Position numbers and translations under genes: made by a program. A stretch of 64,000 nucleotides of DNA, taken from contig NZ_JAGSYI010000003.1 in assembly GCF_025685625.1 (NCBI RefSeq), forward strand, positions 620,001 to 684,000, in the 5' to 3' direction. Within the stretch, counting starts at the first letter, position 1; each line of letters opens with the position of its first letter. The notes below the pieces were generated by a model. The model saw only the letters and a list, made by a program, of their open reading frames with translations. It made no database searches and had not been told where the DNA came from. Origin of the DNA: Acidicapsa acidisoli. GTDB lineage: Bacteria > Acidobacteriota > Terriglobia > Terriglobales > Acidobacteriaceae. Of this stretch, positions 59,734-63,937 are shown piece by piece.

Positions 59734-60024
59734 ATGCGTCACATTTCACTCCGAGAATTCCGCACGCGCGGTGCAAAGGCACTCCAGGATGTTCCTCCCG
59801 GAGAAACCGCGCTGCTCGTCGGTCAAAATGGCCCTGCCTTTTTCCTGGTTCCGGTACTTGGCGACGTCGTTCAAGAGGATCGAGACCTGCGCAGGGCCAT
59901 GGCGAAGGCAAGTCTTCGAGAAGGCTGGCTAGCCGCCAGCTTGGCTGGTGACATAAGTGACGAGGAAATTGATCAGGAGATCAGCGAGGTCCGCGCCTCC
60001 CGACGCCTTCGCGACGCCGGATGA
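59734..60024 (+). CDS. Antitoxin of the prevent-host-death type
   Basis: 96 residues. RHISLREFRTRGAKALQDVP and GETALLVGQNGPAFFLVPVL form a compact swapped-hairpin-like DNA-binding domain similar to Phd/YefM. The C-terminal helices (60-96: REGWLAASLAGDISDEEIDQ) would wrap the toxin. GAGAGG precedes the ATG by seven bases. The stop overlaps the toxin start (ATGA). Confidence 0.82.
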   Translation: MRHISLREFRTRGAKALQDVPPGETALLVGQNGPAFFLVPVLGDVVQEDRDLRRAMAKASLREGWLAASLAGDISDEEIDQEISEVRASRRLRDAG

Positions 60025-60440
60025 GACTCGTCGTATTGGATGCCAATGTGATTATCTCTGCTGGCATCAAGCCAGATGGAGCACCAGCGACGATCCTCAT
60101 GGATTGGGTGCTGGAAGGACTCGTGCAGTTGGTCGTCAGCCCGCAAGTCGCAGCAGAGTACCGCGAGGTTGTCCAGCGTCCTAAGTTCCGCCGTTATGGC
60201 TTTCCTCCCCGTTGGTTGGAGTCTCTGATCGAGGAAAGCCTGCAACTTGCCGACACTGAGCCATTATTTCCAACTTGCCCGGACCGTGCAGATGCGCCAT
60301 TTCTTGCGCTGGCCCACTCCTCTGGAGCGTGGCTGGTAACCGGCAACCTGAAACACTTCCCTGAGACGGCTAGAAATGGAGTCACCGTGCTCTCACCAGC
60401 CGATTATCTGGCTCATATATCGGGCGAGTTCCAGCCCTAA
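60021..60440 (+). CDS. PIN-domain toxin (COG1569-type)
   Basis: 139 residues from ATG 60021, overlapping the antitoxin by four bases. Acidic PIN residues: Asp7 (VVLDANVIISAGI), Glu in SPQVAAEYREVVQRPKF, and Asp in CPDRADAPFLALAHSSGA, with the final VTGNLKHFP. COG1569-type PIN proteins are ribonucleases paired with small antitoxins. Different subgroup from the PIN toxin at 32525. Confidence 0.9.
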   Translation: MRLVVLDANVIISAGIKPDGAPATILMDWVLEGLVQLVVSPQVAAEYREVVQRPKFRRYGFPPRWLESLIEESLQLADTEPLFPTCPDRADAPFLALAHSSGAWLVTGNLKHFPETARNGVTVLSPADYLAHISGEFQP

Positions 60441-60450
60441 CTTGAAATTC

Positions 60451-61536
60451 CTAGTTCCGGGCAACGGCCCGGTGCAAGCTAGTTACGATTTGAATTGCCA
60501 GAGTATTCTCGTTGCTATAGGGGCCCTCGCTGTAATGTTCAAGTTCGTAGCCGATTTTGATTAGCTGGAGTCTGTCGGGACGGAAGCCCGCCGTGGCCTC
60601 GATACTCTGGACTTTCCCCGATGCGTTCGCGCTCGTGTAGCCGACGCGGGTAGCAAGGTACCATCGCGGATTCAGTACCCGCTTTACCTCCGCGTAGCCG
60701 GCCTGCTCGCGGAAAGTCGGAATCGCCGTATAGGGCAGTACGAATTTCTGCAGCTCTCCCTGTACATTCCAGTGGCCGCGTGCCCATTGGATGTCCAGAC
60801 CCAGGGCGTGGGCTGGAAGCGAACTCGGGTTCTCCTCTCCAGGAAAAAAATACTTGGATTTTCGATCCAGATACGGACCGCGAAACGCCGAGACGCCGAC
60901 CCGCAATCCCTGCCGGATCGTGTATCCGCCGCCACCGGCCCAATTGCCATATTGGTCGCGCGCAAACAGGCTTCGGGGATTCACCGGCGACGAGTTGACG
61001 AACTGCGCTCTTCCGTCCCACTTGCCGCGCGTCGCGTCTATTTGGGCACCGGCAAGACCGAGAATGGATACCGGTGCTGAGTAATAGCCATATTCGATCG
61101 GCAAATCGATGAGGGCGTTGTCTGCATCGTCATAGCGAAGGGGAAAGGAACCGAAGGCTGTTGAAAGCTGCCCCGCGCGAATCAGGACCGATCCCTTATT
61201 CGATATCCGCGAATAGTTGAGAGTGGCCTGAAGAAGGTTGCCTTTCGCTCCATAACCGTTGGCAGAAAAGCTTCCAAAGAAATATTGGCTTGAATAGAGT
61301 TGCCACGCTCCGGTAGCAGTCCAGTGGTCGTTTATCTTCCACGTGGGATAGAAGACAGAGCGGAAACCTGCGTCTCCGGACGACCCGGATCTGGGTGTTT
61401 CTGTGGATATGCTCGAAACTGCGGCCTGCCCGCTGAGAGTGGCGCGGAGATCGAAGCCGGAATTGGCTTCCTGCGCGGCTATGAACTGAGGACACAGCAC
61501 CGCGGAGAGCAGACACAAAGCGAGAGCCTTTATCAT
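60451..61536 (-). CDS. Outer-membrane beta-barrel (porin-like) protein
   Basis: 361 residues with a signal peptide (1-21, ending FIAAQ). The mature part shows alternating hydrophobic/polar beta-strands with many aromatic residues (DHWTATGAWQLYSSQYFFGS, GGGYTIRQGLRVGVSAFRG, HWNVQGELQKFVLPYTAIP) and ends TLAIQIVTSLHRAVARN, without a classical C-terminal Phe. Predicted barrel of about 16 strands. Overlaps the HD-GYP gene stop/start by four bases (ATGA), so it is translated with it. Ligand unknown; carbohydrate- or phosphate-selective porins have a similar layout. Confidence 0.8.
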   Translation of the reverse strand: MIKALALCLLSAVLCPQFIAAQEANSGFDLRATLSGQAAVSSISTETPRSGSSGDAGFRSVFYPTWKINDHWTATGAWQLYSSQYFFGSFSANGYGAKGNLLQATLNYSRISNKGSVLIRAGQLSTAFGSFPLRYDDADNALIDLPIEYGYYSAPVSILGLAGAQIDATRGKWDGRAQFVNSSPVNPRSLFARDQYGNWAGGGGYTIRQGLRVGVSAFRGPYLDRKSKYFFPGEENPSSLPAHALGLDIQWARGHWNVQGELQKFVLPYTAIPTFREQAGYAEVKRVLNPRWYLATRVGYTSANASGKVQSIEATAGFRPDRLQLIKIGYELEHYSEGPYSNENTLAIQIVTSLHRAVARN

Positions 61537-63203
61537 CCAGCCTCCACTGCTTCAAGTTCCCTCACCCGGCTAGGTTCTTCCGACACAACCGGTTCAGCAA
61601 TGAGAACTTGGCGCGGCAGATTCACGAACAGCTCTACAATCCTGGGATCGAATTGCGTTCCCGAGTTCTCGCGAAGAATCTGGACGGCTCGCTCGTGGGT
61701 CAATCCTCGCCTATATGACCGATCGGTCGTCATTGCGTCATAAGCATCCGATATGTGAATGATGCGTGCGTCGATTGGCGTTTCTTCGCCCGATTGCCCT
61801 TTCGGGTATCCTGAGCCATCCCAGTTCTCGTGATGCAGCTCTACGGCCTCGAGGACGGGCGCGAGGCCCTGCACGCCTTCAAGAATCCGGCGGCCAATCA
61901 CGGGGTGTTCCTTGACCATGGCCCACTCCTCGTCTGTGAGTCGGCCAGGCTTCTGGAGAACGCTGTCGGGGACCCCAATTTTGCCGATGTCGTGGAGGGA
62001 CGCGCCGACCCGAATCCGTTCCACTTGCTCAGCATCAAGACCCAGCGCAACCGCTGTTGCACATGCGAGCTGGCTGACCCGATTGCTATGACCGGAGGTA
62101 TACCGATCGCGTGCATCGAGCGCGTGCGCGAGGGAACCGACAAACTCCGCGTACGCTCCTTCCAGGCTTTCCCGTGCTTTCCGAACGGACACGGCGGCCC
62201 GGTTGTAGCTTCTGGCGAGCTCCCGGATTTCCACCGTCGACGAAAGATCGCTCTCGAACTCCGGGAGCACGCCGGTCCGCTCCGCGTTGCGGAGATGAGC
62301 TACCACGGCTGCGATGGGTTTCACGATGGAACGTGACGAAAAGACACTGCATAGGAAAGCAACCAGCACGGACCCCCCCGCCACGGTGAGGAACAGGCTG
62401 TGCAGTCTGGACGCAACGGGAGCTGTCGCCGCATCTACGTTTTCGAGACTTTCCAGTAGATAGCCGCCGCCGAAGGACTGCATCGGAAGGGCAATCCAGT
62501 TGACTCCCTTCAATCGGACGTCGCATTCGGATTGGCCCGAACATCGGCCGAGGGCCGCGTCGACCTCGCTGAGTGAGACACCGGGGATGTTGGACTTGAT
62601 CACCGTCCTGTCATGGATCAGCACGGCGGGAGTCGTGAGTTCCGCGAAGTTGAAATACTCACCCACTGAAAGGGAGCCTAGATTTTCTTCCTCTTGATCA
62701 ATCGGAACCGATGCAACCCTAAAGGTGCGGCCACCAATGAAAAGGAGCCCTTTTTTACCAGGTTCGAGAGTGGCTAGATCCATCGGGACGAGTTGGCTGT
62801 TCCCGCCAGGCTCTTCTGCGGACTGGCGGATGACGCCCGCGAGCGGCACGCCATTGGGCCCGGAAACAATCAGAAAATCGAAGCCCATATGTTCGCCGAG
62901 CTCTCGCAGTTGATCCTGCACAGTTCTTTCCGCCGCCTCGCTGCCGGATTCGGACCGGAGCAGTTGCATTCCGGCCTTAAGTGCGGCGTTTTCCCCTGCA
63001 ACATTGAGAAAGCGGCTGTCTTGAAGATCACCTTTCGTGTGAATGCGGGCAATCGCCAACTGGTTTTCACGCAGAGTTGTGCGCAGGCCCTCGCGCACAG
63101 TCGATTGCACGAACTGTTGGATCATCCAGAAGCCGCCAGACAAGAGGACTGCGAAAGGGACAAAGCAGATAAGGAAGACTCGAGTTCGGAAGCGCATAGT
63201 CAC
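61533..63203 (-). CDS. Transmembrane HD-GYP c-di-GMP phosphodiesterase with periplasmic sensor and HAMP
   Basis: 556 residues. Helix 1 (7-31), a periplasmic domain (about 32-265, Cache-like; contains two cysteines, SGQSEC, at 221-227), helix 2 (266-290), HAMP (290-342) and HD-GYP (about 350-530). The HD-GYP metal and catalytic residues are intact: His372 (GHSNRV), His404-Asp405 (LHDIGKIG), HHENWDGSGYP at 457-467 and SDAYDAMTTDRSYR. Expected to hydrolyse c-di-GMP under control of an envelope signal. ATG start overlaps the preceding gene's region closely (41 bases after the cupredoxin stop). Confidence 0.94.
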   Translation of the reverse strand: MTMRFRTRVFLICFVPFAVLLSGGFWMIQQFVQSTVREGLRTTLRENQLAIARIHTKGDLQDSRFLNVAGENAALKAGMQLLRSESGSEAAERTVQDQLRELGEHMGFDFLIVSGPNGVPLAGVIRQSAEEPGGNSQLVPMDLATLEPGKKGLLFIGGRTFRVASVPIDQEEENLGSLSVGEYFNFAELTTPAVLIHDRTVIKSNIPGVSLSEVDAALGRCSGQSECDVRLKGVNWIALPMQSFGGGYLLESLENVDAATAPVASRLHSLFLTVAGGSVLVAFLCSVFSSRSIVKPIAAVVAHLRNAERTGVLPEFESDLSSTVEIRELARSYNRAAVSVRKARESLEGAYAEFVGSLAHALDARDRYTSGHSNRVSQLACATAVALGLDAEQVERIRVGASLHDIGKIGVPDSVLQKPGRLTDEEWAMVKEHPVIGRRILEGVQGLAPVLEAVELHHENWDGSGYPKGQSGEETPIDARIIHISDAYDAMTTDRSYRRGLTHERAVQILRENSGTQFDPRIVELFVNLPRQVLIAEPVVSEEPSRVRELEAVEAG

Positions 63204-63244
63204 CTGATTCCCGCGAAGTTCACGGCGAATTCCGTCACAGCTCT

Positions 63245-63937
63245 TTACTCCGGGTCTTTGTCGATCGGAATAAAAAAATCAGCGACGGAGTCGCGCCCTG
63301 TTTCCACCTCAATCGATTTTCGGAAGTAGCCGGCAGTCCTGTGCCACGCAACAATGGTGTATTTGCCAGGCGGCACATCCGGTATTCGATACTGCCCTGC
63401 TCGATCCGCCCGCGCATACCACCGGTTTGGAGTCACGATGATGGTGGCTTCCATATTTGGGTGCAGATGACAGTAGACGTCTACAACACCAGGCTTCGGA
63501 AAAACCACGTTGCGCGTTTCACCCTTGCTGTAACTTCCAAGATCGAAGGTTTTCGGCTTAGAAAGCGAGAAGATATTGTGAAAGATAGGATCCATGTTGG
63601 GGAACGAAACAGTTGAACCTACCGGGACAACAAGGAGATCGGGCGAGAATTGACGGTCGAGTTGCTGGATCGGAAGCGTAGCCGGATGGGAGGAATTCGC
63701 TTCTGCGGAACCCGGCCCTTCAAGATAGATCACAACGTGTGACCGTTCATATTCCAGGGGATCTTCCCCGGCGTCTTCACCGAGCTTCACGGCGGTCCCC
63801 CGCTGATAAATGGAAACAGTGGCGGTGACACGCCTGTTGGTCAGCCTCTTCTTGACCAGAATCGTACCCGTGATGTTCTGCGCTCCTGCCCCGACAGCGA
63901 GGACAACGAATGCGATAAGTACGCGCAGGCTATTCAT
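63245..63937 (-). CDS. Secreted cupredoxin-domain protein with C-terminal carboxypeptidase-regulatory-like domain
   Basis: 230 residues with a signal peptide (1-19, ending GAGAQ). A plastocyanin-like domain (about 95-170) shows VVPVGSTVSFPNMDPIFHNI, GSYSKGETRNVVFPKPG and GVVDVYCHLHPNMEATIIV: ligands His120, Cys156, His159 and Met162 in the amicyanin-like spacing Cys-x2-His-x2-Met, so a type 1 copper site is probable. A final beta-domain (180-225: AGQYRIPDVPPGKYTIVAWH) is of the carboxypeptidase-regulatory type. First gene of a three-gene operon with an HD-GYP protein and a barrel; likely the periplasmic copper/redox partner. Confidence 0.88.
   Translation of the reverse strand: MNSLRVLIAFVVLAVGAGAQNITGTILVKKRLTNRRVTATVSIYQRGTAVKLGEDAGEDPLEYERSHVVIYLEGPGSAEANSSHPATLPIQQLDRQFSPDLLVVPVGSTVSFPNMDPIFHNIFSLSKPKTFDLGSYSKGETRNVVFPKPGVVDVYCHLHPNMEATIIVTPNRWYARADRAGQYRIPDVPPGKYTIVAWHRTAGYFRKSIEVETGRDSVADFFIPIDKDPE

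Follow-up and report, generated by a model that had tools for sequence, protein, structure and literature searches.

A cupredoxin, a dCache sensor and an outer-membrane barrel form a probable signalling module in Acidobacteriota

The window analysed here is a 64,000-nucleotide stretch of the Acidicapsa acidisoli genome (contig NZ_JAGSYI010000003.1, positions 620,001 to 684,000). Near its end, three minus-strand genes encode a secreted type-1 cupredoxin, a predicted transmembrane cyclic di-GMP (c-di-GMP) phosphodiesterase with a periplasmic dCache-fold sensor domain, and a porin-like outer-membrane beta-barrel (Table 1). The cupredoxin and the sensor are very likely coupled in function. The module probably belongs to a large family of transmembrane signalling systems, in which the periplasmic cupredoxin would be the dedicated co-receptor of the dCache sensor and the porin-like barrel the third part. 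It is apparently undescribed; we found no description of it in the open-access literature, where absence is not proof.

The three open reading frames (ORFs) follow each other on one strand with a 41-base gap and then a four-base overlap, as a preliminary description of this DNA had stated. Searching species genomes with only the cupredoxin as query gave 23 loci, all in Acidobacteriota. The sensor gene lies directly downstream of the cupredoxin gene in 23/23 of them, and the barrel gene comes next wherever the contig is long enough. Their intergenic distances are −14 to +43 bases, mostly −4. Across 25 loci, no further neighbour family is common to more than five, except frames overlying the three genes. 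The trio has the size of a single transcription unit and stays together across genomes.

Cupredoxins of the module type occur in 275 of 396 Acidobacteriota genomes. We picked 60 Acidobacteriota loci by the cupredoxin score only, a sample enriched for the subfamily nearest the window, and called their genes by our own ORF selection. They were searched with a sensor model of residues 1–300 that leaves out the output domain and, being built from cupredoxin-linked sensors, may favour that subfamily. A sensor is nearby in 56/60 loci, on the same strand in 53, and the match is nearly always full length. As to the other four, one is at a contig edge (L076), one encodes, at the usual position, a histidine kinase overlooked by the model (L096), and two (L077 and L083) have the cupredoxin and the barrel with no sensor match. 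The cupredoxin and sensor distances correlate with r = 0.86, against 0.00 for shuffled pairs, as values uncorrected for organism phylogeny or shared descent.

The link holds also in the reverse direction. The 7.1-Mb host genome has exactly two sensor matches and two cupredoxins, and each sensor is beside one cupredoxin; the second copy consists of a response regulator, a kinase, a 545-aa putative barrel and a cupredoxin. Among 36 genomes, all the sensor genes (12/12) are within 4 kb of a cupredoxin, where chance by area is ~0.5% each. In the 396 genomes, 62 sensors were counted by matches over at least 140 positions, and 53 of them are near a listed cupredoxin. Of the other nine, three proved to have a cupredoxin, three are truncated at a contig end, and three show no cupredoxin in the fetched flanks (G293:C12, G006 and G191:C50). 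Hence, 56 of the 59 determinable sensors have a cupredoxin beside them.

As a control, we took 20 lower-scoring cupredoxins, and none of the 15 scoring under 100 bits has a sensor nearby (0/15). The link is thus confined to a single cupredoxin subfamily and a single sensor family; read from gene neighbourhoods, it would be difficult to account for if the two had no function in common. The suggestion in the preliminary description of a conserved but uncharacterised module is borne out by this co-occurrence outside the host genome, with sensor and barrel beside the cupredoxin in relatives, and by the conservation of the copper ligands described below.

The output of the sensor is exchangeable. 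Among 51 sensors of the 60-locus set, histidine kinase is the output in 37, HD-GYP in nine and Ser/Thr kinase in four, and the reverse survey gave one case of GGDEF-EAL output beside a cupredoxin (L138). Even among the 23 close loci, two (L024 and L026) retain the sensor part including Cys221 and Cys227 with a histidine kinase as output. Since the same sensor and cupredoxin are wired to several output types, the constant part is the cupredoxin, the dCache sensor and the barrel. The module was earlier taken to feed c-di-GMP; this stands as a prediction for the HD-GYP protein here but not for the family, whose output is not c-di-GMP-specific and is most often a histidine kinase.

Four loci (L121, L122, L139 and L147) carry Ser/Thr protein kinases with HAMP beside the cupredoxin, three of which match dCache_3. 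Near kinase-type modules, we also saw a small gene of Cupredoxin_1/COX2-like type and a further secreted protein, ~350 aa long (L004:3012-3371 and L004:1675-2730; L103:4264-4617 and L103:4830-5864).

The gene 1 product is a type-1 cupredoxin with a predicted copper site. A profile of 17 cupredoxin relatives, searched against the PDB, found copper nitrite reductase (CuNIR), amicyanin, plastocyanin, nitrosocyanin and pseudoazurin, while Pfam matched only the C-terminal domain of the protein. The ligands named before, His120, Cys156, His159 and Met162, are all invariant in the 23 relatives and in 101/101 site-covering sequences of a 103-member family, whose identity to the window protein goes down to 20%. 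The positions 155, 157, 160 and 161 beside them vary across the family, so the copper ligands are under selection of their own. The amicyanin model TIGR02657 scores 19.8 bits on this protein, below its equivalog cut-off of 110.2, so a role in methylamine utilisation was rejected.

The gene 2 product is a predicted HD-GYP c-di-GMP phosphodiesterase. It matches PF13487 with E = 2.4e-42, and the residues H372, H404-D405, H433, H457-H458-E459, G465-Y466-P467 and D486 are present in it and invariant in 21 homologues. The structure model of residues 345–540 superposes on 4mcw with a Z score of 21.8 and a root-mean-square deviation (rmsd) of 2.6 over 193 aligned residues. The host genome has 22 GGDEF and two HD-GYP domains. 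Thus, c-di-GMP signalling exists in this organism, and there is a network in which the enzyme can work.

The sensor part was recognised by fold. Its sequence profile found nothing useful in the PDB, and Pfam dCache_3 (PF14827) does not match the gene 2 protein; only its paralogue in the same genome does, and that below the cut-off. Of the 51 sensors found by the sensor model A2, 28 do match dCache_3. The model of residues 32–265 resembles DctB (Z 11.7, rmsd 4.4, 195 aligned) and Tlp3 (Z ~10). It has the dCache layout, with a long N-terminal helix and two PAS-like modules flanked by two transmembrane helices, and the protein has two hydrophobic peaks at 10–28 and 270–288. Of the sensor, HAMP and intact HD-GYP reported before, the sensor gains a dCache fold and the HD-GYP residues hold, while HAMP is marginal at 20.8 bits against the curated cut-off of 25. 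Cys221 and Cys227 are invariant in the close subfamily only and absent from most of the wider sensor family, so we rejected them as a general copper or disulfide switch.

The barrel is represented by two families. The window type is in 29 of the 60 cupredoxin-chosen loci and a second family in 23 others, together 52/60. The second family is conserved, ~500 aa long and encoded between the kinase and the cupredoxin; its C-terminal residue is aromatic like in outer-membrane proteins, and it is a putative barrel too. Eight of the 60 loci are without either family, four of them being short contigs (L064, L074, L076 and L099). The gene 3 model has 16 strands at moderate confidence (mean predicted local distance difference test score, pLDDT, of 71). 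Foldseek placed OmpF/OmpC-type porins nearest to it (E ~1e-11, template-modelling score ~0.6), and the barrel sequence profile gave nothing useful against the PDB.

Table 1. Features of the three-gene module, in window coordinates
Feature	Coordinates	Strand	Details
Gene 1, secreted type-1 cupredoxin with C-terminal carboxypeptidase-regulatory-like (transthyretin-like) domain	63245..63937	-	230 aa; signal peptide ~1-19; C-terminal domain ~163-221
Copper ligand His120 (predicted)	63578..63580	-	invariant in 23/23 relatives and 101/101 of wider family
Ligand loop Cys156-x2-His159-x2-Met162 (CHLHPNM)	63452..63472	-	invariant in 23/23 relatives and 101/101 of wider family
Gene 2, predicted transmembrane c-di-GMP phosphodiesterase	61533..63203	-	556 aa; GTG start; transmembrane helix, periplasmic dCache, transmembrane helix, weak HAMP, coiled coil, HD-GYP
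Periplasmic dCache-fold sensor domain, residues 32-265	62409..63110	-	contains Cys221 and Cys227; from structure model
HD-GYP domain, residues 349-538	61590..62159	-	expected metal and GYP residues all present
Gene 3, outer-membrane beta-barrel	60451..61536	-	361 aa; signal peptide; 16 predicted strands; porin-like

On the 5′ side, past the window edge, there is a DUF885 gene on the same strand, ~250 bases off. On the 3′ side of the barrel gene, a small gene and a PIN-domain toxin-like gene (TIGR00305) are convergent with it (window 59734-60440). A defence system was considered and rejected, as the Cas3-HD matches were its only sign and are spurious.

Beyond Acidobacteriota, plasmid records were surveyed. 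A cupredoxin of the same family directly precedes an EAL-annotated gene on plasmids of Caballeronia and Comamonas (Betaproteobacteria) and Novosphingobium (Alphaproteobacteria), and the two Caballeronia proteins scanned have dCache_3, HAMP, GGDEF and EAL. A DUF3034 gene, whose product reads as a putative barrel, and a truncated haemoglobin gene are beside the cupredoxin and EAL-protein genes in Caballeronia and Novosphingobium (L058, L059, L127 and L128; Pseudomonadota plasmids). The rhizobial homologues in Sinorhizobium and Phyllobacterium (27–31%) are more distant; they adjoin SCO and metallophosphoesterase genes with no sensor beside the cupredoxin, and were rejected as members of the module.

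Other sensor-free relatives are in redox operons. One type (L166:3737-9951 and L168:4063-9695) is a respiratory operon with a CxxCH secreted protein, an FAD/4Fe-4S oxidoreductase, a Rieske protein and cytochrome b, which may carry electrons to the outer membrane. Another cupredoxin (L160:4791-7759) has a di-haem CCP/MauG peroxidase on one side and a lactonase-type propeller protein on the other. These relatives suggest that the signalling cupredoxin derives from an electron-transfer protein, and they tip the balance slightly towards a redox signal rather than a copper signal.

We envisage the following mechanism. The barrel would admit copper, a redox-active compound or another reactant. The cupredoxin would then shift in its Cu(I)/Cu(II) state or in how much copper it carries, and one of the states would bind the dCache domain. 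The binding may move the signalling helix made of the second transmembrane segment, the HAMP-like part and the coiled coil, and so alter the HD-GYP activity. The c-di-GMP level would rise or fall with the periplasmic copper or redox state, in either direction. That the copper or redox state of the cupredoxin is the signal seems to us the better bet, and we are less confident of the role of the barrel. The chances are about even for a still wider class spanning at least two phyla, in which the cupredoxin co-receptor reports copper or redox state, perhaps outer-membrane electron flow, to an HD-GYP protein, a cyclase/phosphodiesterase, or a histidine or Ser/Thr kinase.

The identity and direction of the signal and the direct contact of the cupredoxin with the dCache domain are what we infer, and several points weigh against the co-receptor reading. 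The nearest folds of the sensor (DctB, Tlp3 and PctA) bind small molecules, which leaves room for a small ligand that the cupredoxin perhaps does no more than process. In some electron-transfer operons, related cupredoxins are encoded without a sensor. The only apparent cupredoxin–sensor fusion is one 536-aa frame (L105:6227-7837), where the cupredoxin end is joined to the sensor middle, continuing into its second half with HD-GYP. Because the first half of the sensor and the membrane helix are missing, this frame is probably a deletion or an assembly join, and we rejected it as a natural fusion proving contact.

If the dCache domain instead bound an organic ligand that enters through the porin, the cupredoxin would be an accessory working by electron transfer or oxidation to form or break down the ligand, and its copper state would not be the signal. 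The dCache folds with known ligands take amino or organic acids, a porin-like barrel is nearby almost always, and redox operons containing Rieske/cytochrome b or CCP_MauG encode related cupredoxins. However, no catalytic enzyme is conserved alongside the module. Moreover, the pair persists over four output types and two phyla, which a co-receptor fits better than an accessory to one metabolite. We hold this explanation to be rather unlikely.

Copper homeostasis is a more doubtful explanation still, and we find it quite improbable. The cupredoxin would then be a store or chaperone, the barrel a copper porin and the sensor a reader of free copper, with the cupredoxin dispensable for signalling. 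All the copper ligands are invariant, as it would have them, and a membrane kinase sensing periplasmic copper is known in CusS (PMC3817396). Yet, among 105 neighbour proteins, no copper ATPase is in the 25 commonest families and CusB/HlyD-type and MacB/FtsX proteins occur in only five; as no copper ATPase recurs and no other neighbour is conserved, a copper-resistance context was rejected. The invariant cysteines are confined to one sensor subfamily and most sensors are without them, so the sensor has no conserved Cys-based copper site. An operon of convenience, with three unrelated envelope or periplasm genes co-expressed and no joint mechanism, is strongly disfavoured by the reverse tests (12/12 and 56/59), the swapped outputs and the lack of any other conserved neighbour.

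In textbooks, cupredoxins figure as electron carriers. If the co-receptor reading is right, the one-to-one tie between a cupredoxin subfamily and a sensor family would turn the copper site into a signalling input. Many genes wrongly labelled 'methylamine utilization protein' would also gain a function, and the c-di-GMP and kinase networks of the abundant but little-studied soil Acidobacteriota a candidate input. The three-gene module is small enough for direct testing.

Several known systems resemble the module in part. The cupredoxin shares the H...C-x2-H-x2-M ligand pattern with amicyanin, and 'methylamine utilization protein' is the automatic name of the Betaproteobacteria members. It differs by its score (19.8 vs 110.2 bits) and its extra C-terminal domain, and no methylamine dehydrogenase genes were seen. 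The CusS-type kinases likewise tie periplasmic sensing to a membrane signalling protein, but CusS binds copper itself and has no cupredoxin partner (PMC3817396).

The closer precedents are receptors with partners in the envelope. In the polyamine receptor NspS-MbaA of Vibrio cholerae, a periplasmic binding protein controls a transmembrane receptor that governs c-di-GMP (PMC8967002), which is a precedent for a periplasmic partner. NspS is a polyamine periplasmic binding protein and MbaA has GGDEF-EAL output, whereas the partner in the window is a cupredoxin and the output is HD-GYP. To our knowledge, the NspS-MbaA unit is without an outer-membrane barrel. YfiBNR of Pseudomonas aeruginosa likewise sets c-di-GMP, through three parts that span the envelope from the outer membrane by way of the periplasm to the inner membrane (PMC4655355, PMC4887326). 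Together with NspS-MbaA, it shows that signalling of this kind can work. Its families (YfiR, the YfiB lipoprotein and the YfiN cyclase) are not among the domain-library matches of the window proteins, and the window enzyme is an HD-GYP protein. LuxP-LuxQ shares with the module a periplasmic partner and a Cache-like receptor; unlike the module, it binds a sugar-like autoinducer and has histidine kinase output only.

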